Assembly (NCBI GenBank): GCA_030685065.1
Contig: JAUXQH010000024.1
Span: forward strand, 126,501 to 190,500
Length of the DNA stretch: 64,000 nt
Direction of reading: 5' to 3'
From: Pseudomonadota bacterium
Lineage (GTDB): Bacteria; Myxococcota_A; UBA796; SXON01
Shown: one piece after another, positions 46,298 to 56,272 of the stretch
How positions within the stretch are numbered: the first letter of the stretch is position 1
Layout: every line of letters starts with the position of its first letter
Position numbers and translations under genes: made by a program
Notes under the pieces: model-generated
Told to the model about the DNA's origin: nothing
The model's database searches: none
The model's input: only the letters and a program-made list of their open reading frames with translations

Positions 46298-46453
46298 GTG
46301 CACGCGCACCCGGCCGTGCTCGTGTCCGTGGAGCGCATGACCGAGGCCGAGGCCGAGGGCTGGTACCGCCTCATCCAGAACATGGAGGAGGACGCGCGGT
46401 CGGCGGGGGCCCGTGAAGGTGCGCGCCAGCCGTGGAAGTGGGGCGGGTTCTAG
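46298..46453 (+). pseudogene. Remnant of a + strand gene at a mosaic junction
   Basis: From GTG 46298 (or ATG 46337) to TAG 46453, nearly every third codon position is G or C, which fits host-type coding. The peptide has an amphipathic helix (EAEAEGWYRLIQNMEEDAR) and ends PWKWGGF. No ribosome site precedes the GTG. It looks like the 3' end of a truncated gene. It overlaps the end of the integrase gene by 4 nt on the opposite strand. Confidence 0.3.
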
Positions 46454-47748
46454 CGGATCGGGACGACGTTTCCCGTGTCCACGGCCTCGGGCTTCATGTC
46501 GATGGGTGCGACGAGCCCAACGGCCGCAACGAGGGCAGCGTCCGATGGTCGGGCATAGTGCTGCCCCCGCGTGTCGATCGCCGCGTGCCCGACGAGGTAG
46601 TCGATGGTGCGGTCGGACACGCGGTGGACGGGCGCCCCGTCCACTTCCACGGTGATCCCCTGAAGCTCGGACATGTACGCGGCGCGGAACGCGTGGTTCG
46701 GGCGTGCCTTCCGACGGTGGAGCGGACGGGCCACGTTCGGGCGCACCTCGCCAGCCTTCTCGGCGGCGGCCCACAGTTCGTTGATGACGTTCGTGTCGGG
46801 CTCGACGTGGCCGCTCGCCGTGGTGTCCGTCGCGAAGAGGTAGTCGTCGGGGCTCTTGCACGCGGCGATGCGCGTCTGCCACGCGTCGACGAGCGAGCGG
46901 GGGATGGGCACCGTCCGCATCTCCGCCTCCTCCGCGGCCGACTTACCGACCTCGACCGTAAGGGTAGCCCGCACCGGATCCACGGCCCGACGACGGATTC
47001 CGGTGACCTGAAAGACGCGGAGGCCCGTCAGGCGCTCCCCGGCGAGCACGTCGCCGAGGTCTTCGGACACGTCGTAGGCCCGCCGGATGACGGCGTCGCA
47101 CTCGGCCCACGTCGGCGCCGTCGGCGCGCCCTTCTGCCGGGGAACGGGCGGGATCACGAGTTCCCGGTCGACGAGCGGAGGGATGCCCGGGTAGGTGACG
47201 GGCTGCGACGCGCAGTAGCTCCAGATCGAGAAGAGGTGCCCCGAGAGGTGGTACCGCCAGAGGGGCCCACACGCGCCGGGCTTCCGGCCCTTCGTGCCGC
47301 TCCCGGCAGCCTCGTCCTCGGCGATCCACTTGTTCCGCAGCTCGGTGAACAGGTTCACGTCGAGCACGGAGACGGGGATCACGTCCTCGTCCGCGATGCG
47401 GCGGACCTTTCGGACCGTCCCCATGATGCGGGCGATCGCGCTCTTGTACCGACTGCGGGTGCTCTTCTTCCGGTCGCGTGACGACTGCCAGGCGAGCCAG
47501 TTCAGGGCCGCGCGCTCGAGGTTCGCCGCCGTGGTGACGACCCGCGCGGCGGGCTCGTACACGTCGCCGGACTCGAGGGTTCGGCGGAGCTTGCCGACGA
47601 GCGCGTCTCGGGCGCTCTTGTCGGTGACGACCTGGGAGCGGGCCTTGCGGACGCGCAGCCCGTCCTCGACCACGTCCTCACGCCACCGGATCTTGTACTT
47701 GCCGCCGTCGAGGGGGGTGATGCTGAGGCTGATGTTGTTGCGAGCCAC
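46450..47748 (-). CDS. int: Tyrosine-type site-specific recombinase (integrase)
   Basis: The 432-residue protein has an N-terminal SAM-like core-binding region and a catalytic domain with the tyrosine-recombinase residues: Arg in TGLRVFQVTGI (~243), HAFR (His and second Arg, ~350), VGH (~386) and the Tyr in QHYARP (~395). These residues cut and rejoin DNA at attachment sites. All appear intact. It lies near the right repeat, and attachment sites are normally next to int. The N-terminal segment (KYKIRWREDVVEDG) is the arm-type-binding part seen in phage-like integrases. Confidence 0.88.
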   Translation of the reverse strand: MARNNISLSITPLDGGKYKIRWREDVVEDGLRVRKARSQVVTDKSARDALVGKLRRTLESGDVYEPAARVVTTAANLERAALNWLAWQSSRDRKKSTRSRYKSAIARIMGTVRKVRRIADEDVIPVSVLDVNLFTELRNKWIAEDEAAGSGTKGRKPGACGPLWRYHLSGHLFSIWSYCASQPVTYPGIPPLVDRELVIPPVPRQKGAPTAPTWAECDAVIRRAYDVSEDLGDVLAGERLTGLRVFQVTGIRRRAVDPVRATLTVEVGKSAAEEAEMRTVPIPRSLVDAWQTRIAACKSPDDYLFATDTTASGHVEPDTNVINELWAAAEKAGEVRPNVARPLHRRKARPNHAFRAAYMSELQGITVEVDGAPVHRVSDRTIDYLVGHAAIDTRGQHYARPSDAALVAAVGLVAPIDMKPEAVDTGNVVPIR

Positions 47749-48088: not shown

Positions 48089-48745
48089 ATGCTCCTCGCC
48101 CTCGTGCTCCCCGCCGCCGCCGCGGGCATCCCGGCTTCGCTCACCGCCTACGATCAGGCCGTTACCAGCGTCACCCTCGCCCTGACCTCCGCGCTCCCCC
48201 GCCTCGCGGCGTGCAAGGCCGTGCCCGGCGAGAAGCTGGTGTTCAAGGTCAATCTCGCCGGTGTTCCGGTGGTCACGACCGTCGCGCTCACCGGCACGGC
48301 CTCCGCGACCGTGTCCGCGCCCTGCCACGAGAAGGTGGTGGCGGACGTGTTCACCCGCTCCCGGCCCTCCGTCGGGCTCGAGGCCGCCGTCGTCGTGGAC
48401 GTGTTCGGCGGCACCCCGCGTCTCGACGGAGACGTCGCGTTGTTCGGTTCGCTCGGGCGCGAGGCCATCGAGAGCGGCGTGCGCACGCGCATGGATCGGG
48501 TGGCCCAATGCTACGTCAACGCCCTCGAGGCCGCGCCCGGGATCAAGGGCGATGTCGTCGTGAGCATGACCGTGCTACCGACCGGCCAGGTGCTCTCCGC
48601 CGACCTGAAGCGCACGACGTTGTGGAGCCCGCCGACCGAGGCGTGCGTCCTCAAGGAGATGCTGGGCGTCGTGTTCGCAGCGCCCGACGGCGGCGCGCTC
48701 GTGCGGGTGACCTACCCGTTCACCTTCAAGCCGCCCGAGCCCTGA
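48089..48745 (+). CDS. AgmX/PglI C-terminal-domain protein
   Basis: The 218-residue protein has a short export signal (MLLALVLPAAAA). A central domain and a C-terminal AgmX/PglI-type domain (~125-215) follow, with RMDRVAQCYVNALEAAPGIKG and GDVVVSMTVLPTGQVL, then a conserved Cys (EACVLKEML) and PFTF. The domain is abundant in myxobacteria and is related to TonB C-termini. It occurs in gliding-motility and other envelope proteins. Two Cys in the domain likely form a disulfide. Role here unknown. It is the first gene after the island. Confidence 0.75.
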   Translation: MLLALVLPAAAAGIPASLTAYDQAVTSVTLALTSALPRLAACKAVPGEKLVFKVNLAGVPVVTTVALTGTASATVSAPCHEKVVADVFTRSRPSVGLEAAVVVDVFGGTPRLDGDVALFGSLGREAIESGVRTRMDRVAQCYVNALEAAPGIKGDVVVSMTVLPTGQVLSADLKRTTLWSPPTEACVLKEMLGVVFAAPDGGALVRVTYPFTFKPPEP

Positions 48746-48784: not shown

Positions 48785-49270
48785 CTACCGGTGCCCGGGC
48801 GCGTCGATCCAATGCCGATCGGGCCGCTCGGCCGTATGCCACGCCTCGAACGCCGGATCGTCGGGATAGCACGCGCGATCGCCCGCGCGGCGCTCGCCGA
48901 TGATGAGCATCGTGGCCTCGTCCGGCCCGCGGTTCACGAGGCAGTGCGCGATGCCCGTGCCCGCCGGAAACGAGACGAAGTCGCCCGCGGCGAGGGGGTG
49001 CTCCTCGGGCGCGGCGCCGGGCGCGATCACCCGGAGGTGCGGCGTTCCAGTGAGCACATAGACCGCCTCTTCCTCGTCCGAGTGGGCGTGCGTGAAGCTC
49101 GAACGCCGGCCAGGAAGGAGCCGCTCGTGCCAGACCCCGAGCCGCACCGAGCCGGCCGCGGTGCCGAGGTCTCGGCCAATCGAGAGCTTCTCCGCCGCGA
49201 AGGGCGGGGGATACGCCGCCTCCGTGGCGGGGACGCCGGCGGTCGTGACGATGTAGGACGGACGCGTCAC
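48785..49270 (-). CDS. Cupin-domain protein
   Basis: The 161-residue protein has a cupin barrel with both motifs: motif 1 FTHAHSDEEEAVYVLTG (G-x5-HxH-x3-4-E-like) and motif 2 PAGTGIAHCLVNRG. The metal ligands His, His/Asp, Glu and His are present. Such proteins bind a metal and act as epimerases, dioxygenases or regulators; no substrate is evident. The start is GTG and overlaps the upstream gene's TGA by 4 nt, so the two are coupled. Confidence 0.75.
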   Translation of the reverse strand: MTRPSYIVTTAGVPATEAAYPPPFAAEKLSIGRDLGTAAGSVRLGVWHERLLPGRRSSFTHAHSDEEEAVYVLTGTPHLRVIAPGAAPEEHPLAAGDFVSFPAGTGIAHCLVNRGPDEATMLIIGERRAGDRACYPDDPAFEAWHTAERPDRHWIDAPGHR

Positions 49271-49974
49271 TCCTTCACGCTCTTCGCGACGATGCGCTTC
49301 AGCCACCGCATGCCGCGGACCTCCTCGCTGTTGACGGTCTCCACGTCCACACCCAACGCCCTCGCGGTCGCGTCGGGTGAGCACGGCTTGCCCCCGAACA
49401 GGCCGTGGCGCGAGGCCAGCACGGCGCGCTCGCCGGGCTCGAGCTGGAAGAAGGCCTCTTCGAGCTGATCCCAGGTCACGCCGGTGTCCGGGCCGAACAA
49501 GGCGCCGAGCACGGCCGGTCGCGCCGGCTCGGGCACGGCCAGCCCGGCGTCCATGCCGCCGGGGCCGAACGTCAGCTTCGAGTCCGGCTCGTCCAGTGAT
49601 TCTCCCTCGTTGGCGCTGAAGTAGTCGACCGGCAGCGTGTTGGAGCGCGCCTCCTCCAGGGCCTCGGCGATGTTGACGGCCACGACGCAAGCGGCGTCAC
49701 GCACGGTCTCGACCTCGTCCTCCCAGACCAGGTCGTGCGAGAGGACCACCACCTGCTCGCCCTCGTTCACGTCGATCGCCCAGGCGTCTCCGTTGACGGC
49801 GCTGCCGATGATCCAGAGGCCTTGCGACGCGGAGTCGTGCCACTCTTCGCCACGGCTCTCCGCGACCATGTCCCCGAACGTAGGTAGGAACTCGATCGGA
49901 CCCACGACCGCGCCGAGGTTGCGCTTCAGGTGGGCGAGCACCGCGGGGGAGAACGGGGGGGAGGACTCGGGCAA
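49267..49974 (-). CDS. SUKH/SMI1-like domain fused to sigma-70 region-4-like domain
   Basis: The ~235-residue protein has an N-terminal domain (~5-110) that resembles SMI1/KNR4 (SUKH) proteins: LGAVVGPIEFLPTFGDMV, then QGLWIIGSAVNGDAWAIDV. The C-terminal ~65 residues resemble sigma-70 region 4: FFQLEPGERAVLASRHGLFGG, then ATARALGVDVETVNSEEVRGM. An acidic linker joins them. A TTG at 49974 with GGAG upstream is chosen; an ATG at 50058 would add 28 low-quality residues. It shares an operon with the cupin. Role unknown. Confidence 0.5.
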   Translation of the reverse strand: MPESSPPFSPAVLAHLKRNLGAVVGPIEFLPTFGDMVAESRGEEWHDSASQGLWIIGSAVNGDAWAIDVNEGEQVVVLSHDLVWEDEVETVRDAACVVAVNIAEALEEARSNTLPVDYFSANEGESLDEPDSKLTFGPGGMDAGLAVPEPARPAVLGALFGPDTGVTWDQLEEAFFQLEPGERAVLASRHGLFGGKPCSPDATARALGVDVETVNSEEVRGMRWLKRIVAKSVKE

Positions 49975-50105
49975 GGACGGCTCCGGGAGACGGCGGGATT
50001 TAGCACGGCGAGGGGCGGTGTCCGAGGGGTTTCCCGAGCGCGTCGGCAGTCTCGGCAACGCTGGGATCGGGGGTGAGGTTAGGAGGCGGACCTCCGGGAG
50101 CCTCC

Positions 50106-50849
50106 ATGTCCGTCGCCATCATCACCGGCGCCTCCAGCGGCATCGGCGCCTCGCTCGCGCGCGAGCTGGGCCGTCGCAAGTGGAAGGTGGGCGTGATCGC
50201 CCGTCGCGCGGACCTGCTCGATGCGATCGTGGCCGAAGTACGCGCGGCGGGTGGGGAGGCTTCGGCGGCCACCGCCGACGTGACGGACCGCGCGGCGCTC
50301 GACGGCGCGGTCCTCGCGCTCGAGGCGGTCCTCGGCCCGTGCGATCTCATGGTCGCCAACGCCGGCAGCGGCCAGCCCGTTCCCATGCACAAGCTGCCCG
50401 TCGACTCGATCCTCGCGACCATGCGGCTGAACTTCGACGGTGCCCTCTTCAGCGCCGCATCGGTCCTCCCCGGCATGCTCGAGCGCAAGCGCGGTCACGT
50501 CGCGGTGGTGTCGAGCGTGGCCGCGAACCGCGGGCTGCCGGGCAACGGCGGCTACAGCGCGAGCAAGGCCGCGGTCAGTACGCTCTGGGAGACCATGCGC
50601 GTCGATTTGCAGGGGCACGGCGTCCGGTGCACGACCATCCACCCCGGCTTCGTCGCGACGCCGCTCACGTCGAAGAACCGCTTCAAGATGCCGTTCCTCC
50701 TCACCGCCGACCAGGCCGCGTGCATCGTGGCGGACGGGTTGGAGCGCGGCGCCAAGGACATCACGTTTCCCTGGCAGATGCGGTGGGTCACCACGCTGAT
50801 GCGTTGGCTGCCCATCTGGGCGTGGGATCGGATGGCGCCGAAGCGGTGA
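50106..50849 (+). CDS. Short-chain dehydrogenase/reductase
   Basis: The 247-residue SDR enzyme has TGASSGIG (7-14) for NAD(P) binding, NAGSG, the catalytic Ser in VVSSVAA, and YSASK (~149-153). ARR after the second strand suggests NADPH preference. The C-terminal PFLLTADQAACIVADGLERG fits the common SDR subgroup of acyl or sugar reductases. The substrate is unknown. ATG at 50106 has GGGAG upstream. It is divergent from the SUKH-like gene. Confidence 0.85.
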   Translation: MSVAIITGASSGIGASLARELGRRKWKVGVIARRADLLDAIVAEVRAAGGEASAATADVTDRAALDGAVLALEAVLGPCDLMVANAGSGQPVPMHKLPVDSILATMRLNFDGALFSAASVLPGMLERKRGHVAVVSSVAANRGLPGNGGYSASKAAVSTLWETMRVDLQGHGVRCTTIHPGFVATPLTSKNRFKMPFLLTADQAACIVADGLERGAKDITFPWQMRWVTTLMRWLPIWAWDRMAPKR

Positions 50850-50869: not shown

Positions 50870-51181
50870 CTACGTCATGTAGAGCAGCGTCGGCGCGTCG
50901 ATCGCGAAGGCGGCGACGAGCAGCCCGAGCCCGCACGCCCAGCCGAGCAGGCTCGCGCCGAGCCAACGCCAGCGCCTTAGGACGATGAACGCGACGTGCA
51001 CCGGCAGCTGCGCCACGAGCGCGAACATCGTGACCAGGGCGAGGATCACCTCGATGGAGACCAGCGGGCTGGTCGTGTACGCAGCGGAGTGGAGCCCGAC
51101 CCGGTGAACCGCGGCCGTGCCGCACAAAAGAGCGGCGAGCACGGCCGGGAAGGTGGCGGGGAGGCTTCGGAGGAACGTCAC
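50870..51181 (-). CDS. Small membrane protein
   Basis: The 103-residue protein has three hydrophobic helices (~5-25, 40-62, 70-92) and few polar residues. No family was recognised. The start is GTG and overlaps the TGA of the upstream methyltransferase gene by 4 nt (GTGA), so the two are probably translated together. It may modify or carry the methyltransferase's product, but this is only context. Confidence 0.55.
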   Translation of the reverse strand: MTFLRSLPATFPAVLAALLCGTAAVHRVGLHSAAYTTSPLVSIEVILALVTMFALVAQLPVHVAFIVLRRWRWLGASLLGWACGLGLLVAAFAIDAPTLLYMT

Positions 51182-52344
51182 CCGGGCTTCATGGCCACGA
51201 ACGAACAGCTCCCCCCGATCCCGAGCAGGCTCCCGAGCCGATCCGGCGCCGAGAGCGCCTGGGCCAGGGGCACCACCGTGCGGGCGTAGAGCTTCGTGAA
51301 CCGGCTGGTGGGAGGAGGGCCGGACGTCGCTCCGGATGCTCCGGGGGGCGTTGCGGGGGACGCCGCAGGCGTCGCGGAGTCGGCGTGCGCGAGACTCGCA
51401 GCGCCCGCCCCGGCAAGGGGCGGAGCCGACGCAGCCCGCCCCCGGAGGCGGCCGGCAAGGCCGCCGTGAGGGGGCTGGCCCCCCGCCCCAAGATCTCCAC
51501 GACGATTCTTCATCCGACCGAGCCACGGCAGCATCCGATGGTCATGGAGGGGCTGAATCCACACGTTGAAGGAACGCAGGTCAAGCACTTGGAATCCCGC
51601 GCCTTCCAGCCGGGTGCGCATCTGTCGTCGCGTCGGCATGCGCTCGTGAAAGTGGCCCACGCTGGCCTGGCGAGCGGCGTAGTCGCCCGGGTCCCGCGAG
51701 CGCTGGAATCCGTCGAAGCTGCCGTCGATGTCCCGGACGGGCATGTGCACCACGAGGCGGCCGCCGGGCGCGAGGACGCGGAACGCCTCGGTGAGCGCGC
51801 GATCGAGGTGGGTGAGGTGCTCGAACACGTCGAACGCGACGACGGCGGCGAACGCGCCGTCCGCGAAGGGCAGAACCTCGGCGTCCCCGAGCACCCAGAT
51901 GGTGTCGCTGCCGCGGGCGCGCGCGGCGGCGTTCTGGGCCGCCACCCAGACCGGCGAGATGTCGAGGCCGGTGCCGACGATCCCGCGGGTGCGCTCAAGC
52001 CAGGGGAGCAGGCCCGAGCGGTGGCCGCCGATCTCGAGGACGCGGTCCCCGCGCTTGAGCGGCAGGGCTTCGAGCAGCCCCTTCTGGTGCACGAGCATCA
52101 GGTTGTGGGGGTGGTCGAAGTCGCTCATCGCCCCCAGGCGCTGGTCGTAGATGTCGGCCTGGAGGGACTTGTTCGGGTCGTCCGGTGCGTCGCCGGGCGC
52201 GCCGCCGCCACGCGGGCGCAGATCCCAGCCGCCGAGGGCCTCGGGGTACACGGTGCCGGCCGGGCCGGCGAGCCCGCCATGGACCGCGGTGAGCGGGCGT
52301 TTGTCGACGGGATCGGCGAGGTGCTTCGGGGGGATGGAGCTCAT
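51178..52344 (-). CDS. Class I SAM-dependent methyltransferase with Trm112-like start
   Basis: The 388-residue protein begins with a Trm112-like segment (KHLADPVDKRPLTAVHGGL). The Rossmann core has motif I VLEIGGHRSGLLPWL and FDVFEHLTHLDRAL, as in small-molecule methyltransferases. A ~60-residue Gly/Ala/Pro-rich insert (~295-350) is encoded by the long copy of a GC-rich repeat. Then a C-terminal KLYARTVVPLAQAL segment resumes. The target may be a polysaccharide sugar, given the neighbours. Its start overlaps the upstream AlkP gene stop (ATGA). Confidence 0.75.
   Translation of the reverse strand: MSSIPPKHLADPVDKRPLTAVHGGLAGPAGTVYPEALGGWDLRPRGGGAPGDAPDDPNKSLQADIYDQRLGAMSDFDHPHNLMLVHQKGLLEALPLKRGDRVLEIGGHRSGLLPWLERTRGIVGTGLDISPVWVAAQNAAARARGSDTIWVLGDAEVLPFADGAFAAVVAFDVFEHLTHLDRALTEAFRVLAPGGRLVVHMPVRDIDGSFDGFQRSRDPGDYAARQASVGHFHERMPTRRQMRTRLEGAGFQVLDLRSFNVWIQPLHDHRMLPWLGRMKNRRGDLGAGGQPPHGGLAGRLRGRAASAPPLAGAGAASLAHADSATPAASPATPPGASGATSGPPPTSRFTKLYARTVVPLAQALSAPDRLGSLLGIGGSCSFVAMKPG
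51343..51493. repeat. GC-rich intragenic repeat, long copy
   Basis: Ends match the short copy at 38016-38051: the 17-bp GGGGGGCGTTGCGGGGG (51343-51359) and CCCCCCGCCCCAAGA (51479-51493). Between them are nested palindromes such as GACGCC-GCA-GGCGTC and CGCCCC-GGCAA-GGGGCG. The ~151-bp unit is in frame in the methyltransferase and gives a low-complexity linker. Confidence 0.65.
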
Positions 52345-54008
52345 TGGAGGTAGCCGAGCCCCCGGAGCCGCTCTTCGATGGCGCGATCGGTCGCGGCGTC
52401 CCGCGTCGGGCCGGACGCCCCGGCGAAGATTCGCGCCTCGGTCCACAAGGTGCGCAGCTGAGCCGCGAGGACCTCGTGGAGCACGCGCCCGTCGATGTCG
52501 TCGGGGATGGCGGCGCCCATCGTCGCGAAGAGGGTGGGAAGGATGTCGACGATGTTCGCGTCCGCGATGGTGGTGCCCGGCGCGAAGTCGGGGCCCCAGC
52601 CGAGAAACAACCCGTCCGGCTCGTGGTTGCCGCTCGCGAAACCGCTCTTCTCGAAGACCTCGCTCGGCACGTCTCCCTCGGAGTAGTAGAACCACACCGA
52701 GTCGTCGTGCGTGGCGATGAGGAGATCCGCCGCGCCGTGCACCTCGGGGCCCTGATAGAGGACGTCCCGACGGTCCACCCGCGTGATGATGCGCTTGCCC
52801 TCGGGATCCCGCATGGCGAGCAGGCGCTGGCGCACCTCCTCGACGACGCGATCGTAGTCCGCGGGGTCCACCGAGCCGCGCGGCTCCCGGCCCTTGAGGT
52901 TGATGCGCACCGAGTTCGTGCCGTGGCAGAACGCCTGGGTGTTCTCCCAGTCGATGTCCGTCGCGAAGCGAGACAGCTCATCGCCCATGCGGAGCGCCCG
53001 ATCGCCGCCGAACCGCTTGGCGAGATCGAGCAGCTTACGGGTGTCGACACCGGCGCGGCCGAGCAGTCCGCGGACCTTGTGGAGGCGGTTGCGGGTGTCC
53101 CGGCCGCCCTCGCGAAACTTCAGGAAGCCCTCCTGTGCGAGCCAGGTGTTCAGGAACACCTTGTAGCGACAGGGCCCGAACCCATGGTCCGAGATGAAGA
53201 TGACGTTCGAATCCGCGGGCTTACGCTCCATCATCTCGGCGATGCGGGTGTCGAGGATGCGGTAGATGTCGAGGATGGCCGACTCGTACTTCGTCGCGAG
53301 GGCGGCGTCGTAATACGGGTGGTTCGGATCGAAGATGTGCCAGAGACAATGCTGCATCCGGTCCATCTCGACCCAGACGGTGCAGAACACGTCCCACGGC
53401 TCCTGCTCCATCAGCGTACGCACGAGCTTGCCGCGCCCCTCCAGCATGGCGCGCAGCCGCGCCAGGAAAGGGAGGATGTCGGCTTCGGATTCCGTGAGGT
53501 GAGTGTCGATCACGTAGTCGGGCACGAGCTTGTCGAGCTCGGCCTTGTACGACGCGGGCCAGGTGAAGCCGGGCACGTCCTTCGACGGGGTGAGCATGTC
53601 GCCGACCGCGATCCCGTTGATCGGGCGGGCCGGGTAGGTGAGCGGCAGGTTGACCGTGGCCACCCGCGCGCCGCGCTCCGACAACAGCTCGAAGAACGTG
53701 CGCGATTGGATACGCGTCGAGTCGATCGGGCGGTAGAGGTAGCTGCCGGGCACCGGTTCGGTCCAGTCGTAGATGCCGTGCTTGCCGGGGCCTTTTCCTG
53801 TCTGGTAGGCGGTCCACGCGGTGGCGGTCATCGGCGGGACGACCGACCACAACGGGCCGGACGCGCCCTGGTCGCGGAGCTTCCCGAGAGTCGGCATGAC
53901 GCCGCGCTCGATGAAGCCGTCCAGGAGCTTCCACGTGGCGCCGTCGAGGCCGATGACGACGGCCTTGCGGCGCACTGCCTTGGCAGAGATACTTGCCTTC
54001 GCGGTCAT
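52341..54008 (-). CDS. AlkP-superfamily phosphodiesterase-like hydrolase
   Basis: The 555-residue protein has the nucleotide-pyrophosphatase/phosphodiesterase fold: VVIGLDGATWKLL (first Asp metal ligand), a TATAWTAY nucleophile Thr region, and SDHGFGP (Asp-His ligands). No signal peptide is visible, so it may act in the cytosol, or be exported by another route. It probably cleaves phosphodiesters or sulfates. It starts the leftward operon with the methyltransferase and faces the Wzc-like gene (68-bp gap). ATG at 54008 has GGAGGGGG upstream. Confidence 0.78.
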   Translation of the reverse strand: MTAKASISAKAVRRKAVVIGLDGATWKLLDGFIERGVMPTLGKLRDQGASGPLWSVVPPMTATAWTAYQTGKGPGKHGIYDWTEPVPGSYLYRPIDSTRIQSRTFFELLSERGARVATVNLPLTYPARPINGIAVGDMLTPSKDVPGFTWPASYKAELDKLVPDYVIDTHLTESEADILPFLARLRAMLEGRGKLVRTLMEQEPWDVFCTVWVEMDRMQHCLWHIFDPNHPYYDAALATKYESAILDIYRILDTRIAEMMERKPADSNVIFISDHGFGPCRYKVFLNTWLAQEGFLKFREGGRDTRNRLHKVRGLLGRAGVDTRKLLDLAKRFGGDRALRMGDELSRFATDIDWENTQAFCHGTNSVRINLKGREPRGSVDPADYDRVVEEVRQRLLAMRDPEGKRIITRVDRRDVLYQGPEVHGAADLLIATHDDSVWFYYSEGDVPSEVFEKSGFASGNHEPDGLFLGWGPDFAPGTTIADANIVDILPTLFATMGAAIPDDIDGRVLHEVLAAQLRTLWTEARIFAGASGPTRDAATDRAIEERLRGLGYLQ

Positions 54009-54076
54009 CCCGTCCCCCTCCAACACCGGGTACGTTGTAGCCCGGCCGCCGAAGGGGTGGCCACGCAGGAGAGTGA

Positions 54077-56272
54077 TTGGCAGCACCCCAGGGACCCAGT
54101 GGTCCGAACCGTCCCCACCGGCCGCGTCGGCAGCTCCGGGACGATGACGACACCTCGCTCTCGGAGATCCTGCACCTGCGGGACTACTGGCGCACCGTAC
54201 GGAAGCGTTTGTGGACGCTCATCACCGCGTTCTCCTTGATCGTCGGGAGTGTCACGGTGGTCACGCTCCTGACGCCGCAGGTGTTCGAGTCGACCGCCTC
54301 GCTCCAGATCGACTCTCAGCCGCAAGCGAACACGAGCCTCTCCGCCTACGGACAGACCGGCCAGGGGCAATACCTGCTCGAGCAGGAATACTTCAGTACG
54401 CAGCACAAGAAGCTGAGGAGCCGCGTGCAGGCGCGCGCGGTCGCCGAGCGGCTCGATCTCGCCAACAACCCAGTCTACGCGGAGCTCGAGCCGGACGAGC
54501 TGGTGCAGACGCTGCTCAACCAGGTGGACATCGCGCCCATCAAGGGCACGCGCCTGGTGTGGATCTACGTGCGGGCGAACGATCGTGAATTCGCCGCGCT
54601 CCTCTGCCAGACCTGGGCGGAAGTGTTCGTCCAGCGCAACATGGACGAGATCAACCAGGGCGTCCAGGGCGGCCTGGGCTGGCTCTCCGGCGCGGTGACC
54701 AAGGCCGAGGAGGAGTTCCGCCAGGCCGAGCAGGCGCTGCTCGATTTCCGTAGGAAAAACAACAAGATCGCCCTGTCTTCCCAGGAAGAGGGAAACCTGC
54801 TCGTTCAGCAGCTCGAAGAGCTGTCGCGCAAGCGCGCCCTGGCCGAGGCCGAGCGCGCCGCCCGCGAGGCCGAGTACGACGGGCTCGCGGCGTCGGCTCG
54901 CACGCAGAAGGATCTTCGGCGGATCTCCCTGCTCGTCGAGAGCCCCCTGATGTCCGGGCTGCGCGAGCAGCTCACGACGCTTCAGGCCGATCGGGAGGCG
55001 CTGATGACGCGGTACCTGCCCGACGCGCCCGTGCCCCTCGTGCTCCAGAACAAGGAGCGCCTGGTGGACGTCGAGCTGCAGATCCGCTCCGAGGTGGACG
55101 CCGAGCTCGGCCGCCGCCGCGCGATGCTCGCCCAGGCCCAGAGCACGGAGGAGGGGCTTCAGCGCTCGATCGAGTCGCTCACCAAGAGCGCGCTCGAGGA
55201 AAACGGTGAAGAGGCCAACTACAACCTGCTCCGTCGCCAGGTGGACTCGCGCGCGATCATCTACAAGCACCTGGTCGAGAAGAGCCAGGAGATGGACGTG
55301 ACCTCCTCCCTCAAGGAGAACAACGTCCGCATCATCGATCCCGGCGAGGCCGGAGAGAAGCCGGTGGAGCCGAACTACGTCCGCAACATCGGCGTGGCCA
55401 TCCTCGGTGGCCTCCTGGTCGGCGTGTCGATGGCGCTGTTCTTCGACTACATGGACACGACGATCAAGACCCGAGAAGAGGTCGAGGCGCTCGGATTGCC
55501 GTTCCTCGGCATCATCCCGAGCGTGCCCGGCCTGGAGGGCGAGGGCTGGGAAGTGGCGCGGCAGCGCTACCTGTACGCGCTGAACTACCCCAAGAGCGCC
55601 TTCGCGGAATTCTGTCGAAACATCCGAACGACCGTGAACTTCAGCGCGCGGGAGGACGGCCTGCCGCCCCGCCGCCTCCTCATCACCTCCGCCGGCCCGC
55701 GCGAGGGGAAGACCACCTCGAGCATCAACCTCGCGATCACCTTCGCGAGCAACGGCCGGCGTGTCTGCCTCGTGGACGCCGATCTGCGGCGCCCGAGCCT
55801 GCACCACGCGTTCGGCCTCCCCAACGAGGAGGGCTTCTCCACCCTCATCGGGGGGACCTCCTCCGTGGCCGCCGTGTCGCAGCCGACGCCCCAGGAGGGG
55901 CTGTTCATCATTCCTTCGGGCCCCCGGCCGCCGAACCCCGCGGAGATGCTCGGCTCGCAGGCGTGCAAGGACGCGCTCGATCGGCTCAACGAGGCGTTCG
56001 ACCTGGTCATCATCGACTCGCCGCCCGTCGTCGCCGTGACCGACGCGGTAGTGCTCGCGAACGACGTCGACGGTGTGATCCTCGTGGTGAAGAGCTTCAA
56101 GGTCGCGCGGGACCTCGTGCTCCAGGCCAAGCGCCAGCTGGTCGACGTCGAGGCGCGCCTCATCGGCGTCATCCTCAACAACTTCGATATTCAGCGTAAA
56201 AGCTACGGGTATTACTACTACTATTCGTATTACGGGTCCGATCGCGAGGACGTTGGCAAGGGACGTACGTGA
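54077..56272 (+). CDS. wzc: Wzc-type polysaccharide co-polymerase/BY tyrosine autokinase
   Basis: The 731-residue inner-membrane protein has TM1 (~45-65), a long periplasmic coiled-coil domain (~200-400), TM2 (~433-458), and a cytosolic BY-kinase domain with Walker A SAGPREGKTTS (~538), Walker A' VCLVDADLRRP (~565) and Walker B DLVIIDSPP (~642). The tail has eight Tyr between 710 and 719 (YGYYYYYSYY). Such kinases control polymer length and export by autophosphorylating the tail. The start is TTG with AGGAG upstream. Its TGA overlaps the next gene's GTG. Confidence 0.9.
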   Translation: MAAPQGPSGPNRPHRPRRQLRDDDDTSLSEILHLRDYWRTVRKRLWTLITAFSLIVGSVTVVTLLTPQVFESTASLQIDSQPQANTSLSAYGQTGQGQYLLEQEYFSTQHKKLRSRVQARAVAERLDLANNPVYAELEPDELVQTLLNQVDIAPIKGTRLVWIYVRANDREFAALLCQTWAEVFVQRNMDEINQGVQGGLGWLSGAVTKAEEEFRQAEQALLDFRRKNNKIALSSQEEGNLLVQQLEELSRKRALAEAERAAREAEYDGLAASARTQKDLRRISLLVESPLMSGLREQLTTLQADREALMTRYLPDAPVPLVLQNKERLVDVELQIRSEVDAELGRRRAMLAQAQSTEEGLQRSIESLTKSALEENGEEANYNLLRRQVDSRAIIYKHLVEKSQEMDVTSSLKENNVRIIDPGEAGEKPVEPNYVRNIGVAILGGLLVGVSMALFFDYMDTTIKTREEVEALGLPFLGIIPSVPGLEGEGWEVARQRYLYALNYPKSAFAEFCRNIRTTVNFSAREDGLPPRRLLITSAGPREGKTTSSINLAITFASNGRRVCLVDADLRRPSLHHAFGLPNEEGFSTLIGGTSSVAAVSQPTPQEGLFIIPSGPRPPNPAEMLGSQACKDALDRLNEAFDLVIIDSPPVVAVTDAVVLANDVDGVILVVKSFKVARDLVLQAKRQLVDVEARLIGVILNNFDIQRKSYGYYYYYSYYGSDREDVGKGRT

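Follow-up and report, generated by a model that had tools for sequence, protein, structure and literature searches.

A genus-restricted protein carrying a degenerate primary-type sigma-70 region 4 and a putative SUKH-like domain

The fusion gene and its surroundings

The window, which is the whole 64,000-nucleotide stretch of contig JAUXQH010000024.1 analysed here, contains on its reverse strand a small gene whose product consists of two distinct halves (the fusion gene and the fusion protein, respectively, hereafter). In the original prediction, the halves were a SUKH-like domain and a sigma-factor region-4-like domain, and the gene, taken to be cotranscribed with a cupin gene, was suggested as one that could encode a transcription regulator with a peptide or toxin sensor. 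The features in and around the gene are as follows.

48092-48745, forward strand: gene with an AgmX/PglI C-terminal domain; convergent; a conserved neighbour in the three species
48788-49270, reverse strand: Cupin_2 gene (E 1.8e-12); its start, a GTG, overlaps the fusion gene's stop; among the three genomes, found in the window's genome only
49267-49974, reverse strand: fusion gene, 235 aa, TTG start; orthologues in two congeneric genomes
49279-49479, reverse strand: sigma-70 region 4-like domain (residues 194-260), composed of a highly conserved region 4.1 (194-225) and a degenerate HTH (226-247)
49480-49614, reverse strand: conserved linker (residues 149-193), 82% invariant among the three species
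49615-49959, reverse strand: N-terminal domain (residues 34-148 of the 263-aa frame), SUKH-like at a sub-threshold level, with the predicted order a-b-a-b-b-b-a
50106-50849, forward strand: short-chain dehydrogenase (SDR) gene; divergent; a conserved neighbour in the three species
51181-54086, reverse strand: overlapping pair of a methyltransferase gene and a type I phosphodiesterase-like gene; kept beside the SDR gene in the relatives

The open frame on the reverse strand that stops at 49267 reaches up to 50058 (the 263-aa frame). The TTG at 49974 is likely to be the start of the gene, since it lines up with the GTG starts of both orthologues and the translation upstream of it is not conserved between the window's sequence and these two; GGAG is located 6 nt upstream of this TTG. 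The orthologues, 76-80% identical, come from the two remaining genomes of the genus (G035, L006; G036, L005). Among the three species the gene has a dN/dS of about 0.2 and a GC3 of 93-97%, and the ORF at 49267-49974 is, as judged by this comparison, a real gene under purifying selection. Upstream of it, all three species share an unchanged GTGCTAA motif (about 50005-50015, reverse strand) within a leader that otherwise aligns poorly; the motif is possibly part of a promoter. A scan for consensus promoters found nothing, which is weakly informative at such a GC content.

In the genomes searched, the other fusions of this kind were the two congeneric orthologues. No orthologue was found beyond the genus in the 71 genomes searched in the class or in the 379 genomes sampled from the phylum, and by these searches the fusion gene is known from three related genomes only, all belonging to one genus. 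Searches for distant relatives did not deepen the alignment: that of genome contigs gave two loci, that of viral contigs gave none, and that of plasmids gave nothing credibly related to the N-terminal half. When the profile of the N-terminal half was run against the phylum, the matches outside the genus were all chance-looking. The SDR loci in other genera of the class were also found to be devoid of the fusion gene. The distribution is narrow, and the general impact is accordingly modest.

The overlap between the start of the cupin gene and the stop codon of the fusion gene suggests that the two are co-transcribed in the window's species. Nevertheless, this real cupin gene is absent from the congeneric genomes G035 and G036. 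Because it is present in one of the three species, it cannot be an obligatory partner of the fusion protein; either the window's species gained it or the other two lost it. The predicted cotranscription is plausible for this one species; a conserved partnership is not upheld. None of the immediate neighbours (the SDR, AgmX-like, methyltransferase and phosphodiesterase genes, and the cupin gene in one species) was recognised as a toxin gene. At 46450-47748 on the reverse strand, a few hundred bases away from the convergent neighbour, lies a gene whose product resembles tyrosine recombinases (Phage_integrase PF00589, E 1.7e-4, under the curated cut-off); a mobile element in the window's species is possible there.

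Homology of the two halves

The C-terminal half is firmly identified as a primary-type (group 1/2) sigma-70 region 4, by both homology and fold. When single sequences were used, the matches were marginal, yet nearly all of them were sigma factors: Pfam PF04545 matched all three orthologous sequences, with E 0.018 for the window's protein (below the curated cut-off) and E 0.003 for the consensus of the three, and the NCBIfam sigma families matched the window's protein with E 0.009-0.2. The profile built from the three sequences found RpoS region 4 (1.7e-5) and RpoD region 4 (1tty; 5e-5) in the PDB, and the full-length profile, when run on the phylum, picked up true group 1/2 sigma factors through the C-terminal half. 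An hhalign-type profile-profile comparison of the sigma-4 half with RpoD gave P 0.0004. The predicted structure is confident only in the C-terminal part (pLDDT 72-91 for residues 181-260), and Foldseek superposed the predicted domain on isolated sigma-4 structures with TMt mostly 0.6-0.79 and rmsd 1.3-2.2 Å. It was also found that the loop between regions 4.1 and 4.2, RxGLFGGKP, has a form that is typically seen in primary-type sigma factors and is missing from the ECF-type sigma domains in the same genome (e.g., L103, L104 and L107). The PHROGs search gave a weak sigma match and nothing more, and the PADLOC search gave nothing. Sigma region 2 is absent from the fusion protein: there was no Pfam or NCBIfam match to it, and the N-terminal half is too short and is unrelated. 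The fusion protein is therefore not a complete sigma factor.

For the N-terminal half, the only Pfam family matched was SMI1_KNR4 (SUKH-1, PF09346), at 13.1-14.6 bits where the curated cut-off is 25.4. E was 0.05 when the three-sequence consensus was used (profile positions 20-111) and 0.16 for the window's sequence alone (positions 47-111), in the same register, while neither orthologue was matched singly. A comparison by hhalign with the SUKH domains of the same class was weak (P 0.001-0.002, probability 13-18%); none of 100 column-shuffled decoys did as well, and the best alignments were partial and differed between SUKH subsets. This profile signal is weaker than that of the sigma-4 half against RpoD, but a signal of this size can be obtained from three near-identical sequences. 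A local SUKH HMM scored the N-terminal half no higher than shuffled sequences, and the SUKH_6 and SUKH_5 models had no match in the window's genome. AlphaFold modelled this half with a mean pLDDT of about 50-55, too low for a fold to be assigned, and the Foldseek matches include no SUKH structure. OAA-type lectins (PDB, E 0.3) and MHC folds (E 0.5 or worse) also came up, and both were rejected as chance matches. Taken as a whole, we consider homology to SUKH somewhat more probable than not. Thus, of the two predicted domains, the sigma-4 half was borne out by the profile searches and the fold, while the SUKH half stays below the cut-off as the best weak guess. A distinct SUKH-1-type subfamily (LPxxLRxFLxRxNGAxLFRGALRLRS) was separately seen to recur across genera of the class (L034, L035, L036, L037, L038, L047 and L051).

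Residues and constraint within the sigma-4 domain

The residues of the domain were compared with those of RpoD (L100) of the same genome in E. coli sigma70 numbering, in which we take the -35 contacts to be R554, R584, E585, R588 and Q589. In the three species, the equivalent of R554 is G or T, that of R584 is V, P or A, that of R588 is N or A, and that of Q589 is S or A, whereas that of E585 is E or D. The basic residues equivalent to R562, R596 and R/K599 are kept, and some DNA affinity of the fusion protein is possible on this ground. Since all three species have lost the main -35 contact residues and conservation is lowest in the HTH, reading of the -35 element by the fusion protein appears unlikely; the originally predicted -35 recognition is weakened to that extent.

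A clear contrast is also seen between the parts of the domain. Region 4.1 is 88% invariant among the three species, with dN/dS 0.04-0.11, and is the most conserved segment of the protein, while the HTH is 27% invariant, with dN/dS 0.22-0.50; this contrast is drawn from three sequences with few substitutions. The N-terminal domain is 74% invariant. In sigma factors, region 4.2 is normally the strongly conserved part. A true sigma factor of the group 2-like type, encoded in these genomes, shows 99% identity from end to end. Because region 4.1 is constrained and the HTH is variable, as against a uniformly conserved true sigma factor, the part of the domain that contacts protein is apparently held by selection more than the part that reads the -35 element, as far as three sequences indicate.

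Interpretation and comparison with known systems

Our preferred reading, to which we give a rough probability of 0.42, is that the fusion protein is a genus-restricted cytosolic regulator that arose from a captured primary-type sigma region 4 and acts as a sigma-4 mimic without -35 reading. The C-terminal domain would retain the sigma-4 fold, above all region 4.1, minus the -35-reading residues. Its target would be the beta-flap tip, where sigma-4 sits on RNA polymerase, or else a sigma-4-binding protein, and by docking there it would compete with or modify the housekeeping sigma factor, as T4 gp33 does. The N-terminal domain, which is probably SUKH-like and protein-binding, would supply the partner or the signal. 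The data show a real, conserved gene, the fold and ancestry of sigma-4, the lost DNA-contact residues and the constraint on region 4.1, whereas binding to RNA polymerase, the lack of -35 reading, the SUKH identity and the regulatory role belong to the interpretation. A polymerase-directed regulator with a protein- or peptide-binding N-terminal domain is possible, which keeps a part of the predicted sensor-regulator, while the promoter-recognising role predicted with it is weakened by the loss of the -35 residues. A more specific version, in which a chromosomal sigma-4 mimic with a SUKH ligand-binding domain occupies the beta-flap on binding a protein or peptide and reprograms transcription without DNA reading, is doubtful.

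Three other explanations were weighed against this reading. The protein may be a sequence-specific transcription factor that uses its sigma-4-derived HTH on a non-canonical site and its N-terminal half as a sensor; a conceivable site, put forward with equal reserve, is the intergenic region common to the SDR gene and the fusion gene. The HTH fold and some basic residues are indeed left, and the SDR gene is divergent in all three species, a layout common for local regulators; however, no part is less conserved than the recognition helix (27% invariant), and the canonical base-contact residues are gone, so that we judge this explanation unlikely. It is slightly less likely again that the sigma-4 domain is a relic with a purely structural or dimerising role, the job of the protein, such as immunity, coming from the N-terminal domain. 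High invariance of that domain (74%) and of the linker (82%) agrees with such a division, as does the role of most SUKH proteins, which provide immunity in toxin systems (PMC3482391), but none of the immediate neighbours was recognised as a toxin gene, and the constraint on region 4.1, the strongest in the protein, is beyond expectation for a passive relic. A regulator that recognises -35 elements through its sigma-4 domain and works with the cotranscribed cupin is very improbable: real as the sigma-4 homology and the overlap of the two genes are, the -35-contact residues are lost, sigma region 2 is absent, and the cupin gene is missing from both relatives.

If the preferred reading is true, this chromosomal gene, with region 4.1 retained and the residues for promoter reading gone, would offer a straightforward and testable example of how a sigma domain can become a different type of transcription regulator. 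Under the doubtful, more specific version, the protein would be a cellular counterpart of phage gp33 tied to an immunity-type sensor. In the original prediction, the pair was said not to have been seen described; no paper on a SUKH-sigma fusion was found in a literature search whose scope excluded most subscription journals. To our knowledge, sigma region 4 is uncommon outside sigma factors, and the clearest example that we know of, gp33, is from a phage.

Among known systems, region 4 of group 1/2 sigma-70 factors (RpoD and RpoS) has the fold, the sequence profile and the RxGLxGG loop in common with the fusion protein; in contrast, the latter has no regions 1-3, has lost key -35 contacts, and does not conserve the recognition helix. 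ECF sigma factors keep sigma-2, and the extra domain of ECF41 is a C-terminal extension, whereas the fusion protein has no sigma-2, carries its extra domain at the N-terminus, and has a primary-type region 4 loop. The likeness lies in a single polypeptide that combines sigma domain 4 with an additional regulatory domain, as is described for the ECF41-type factors (PMC3426412). With SUKH-1 (SMI1/KNR4), the N-terminal half shares its sole Pfam match, in a consistent register, and a motif resembling the family (GDxWAIDxxxGxxVVxxSHD); however, the match is under the curated threshold, the first helix of the family is apparently missing, and the low-confidence models do not confirm the fold. The closest working analogue appears to be T4 gp33, a late-transcription co-activator described as mimicking sigma-4 on the beta-flap without recognising any DNA sequence (PMC2988020). 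Both are sigma-4-like modules without sigma region 2, and the lack of DNA sequence recognition would also be common to them, as we infer for the fusion protein. The fusion protein differs in that it is chromosomal and bacterial, with clear sequence homology to primary sigma factors and an extra N-terminal domain, and while beta-flap binding has been described for gp33, it is proposed for the fusion protein from its sequence and fold.
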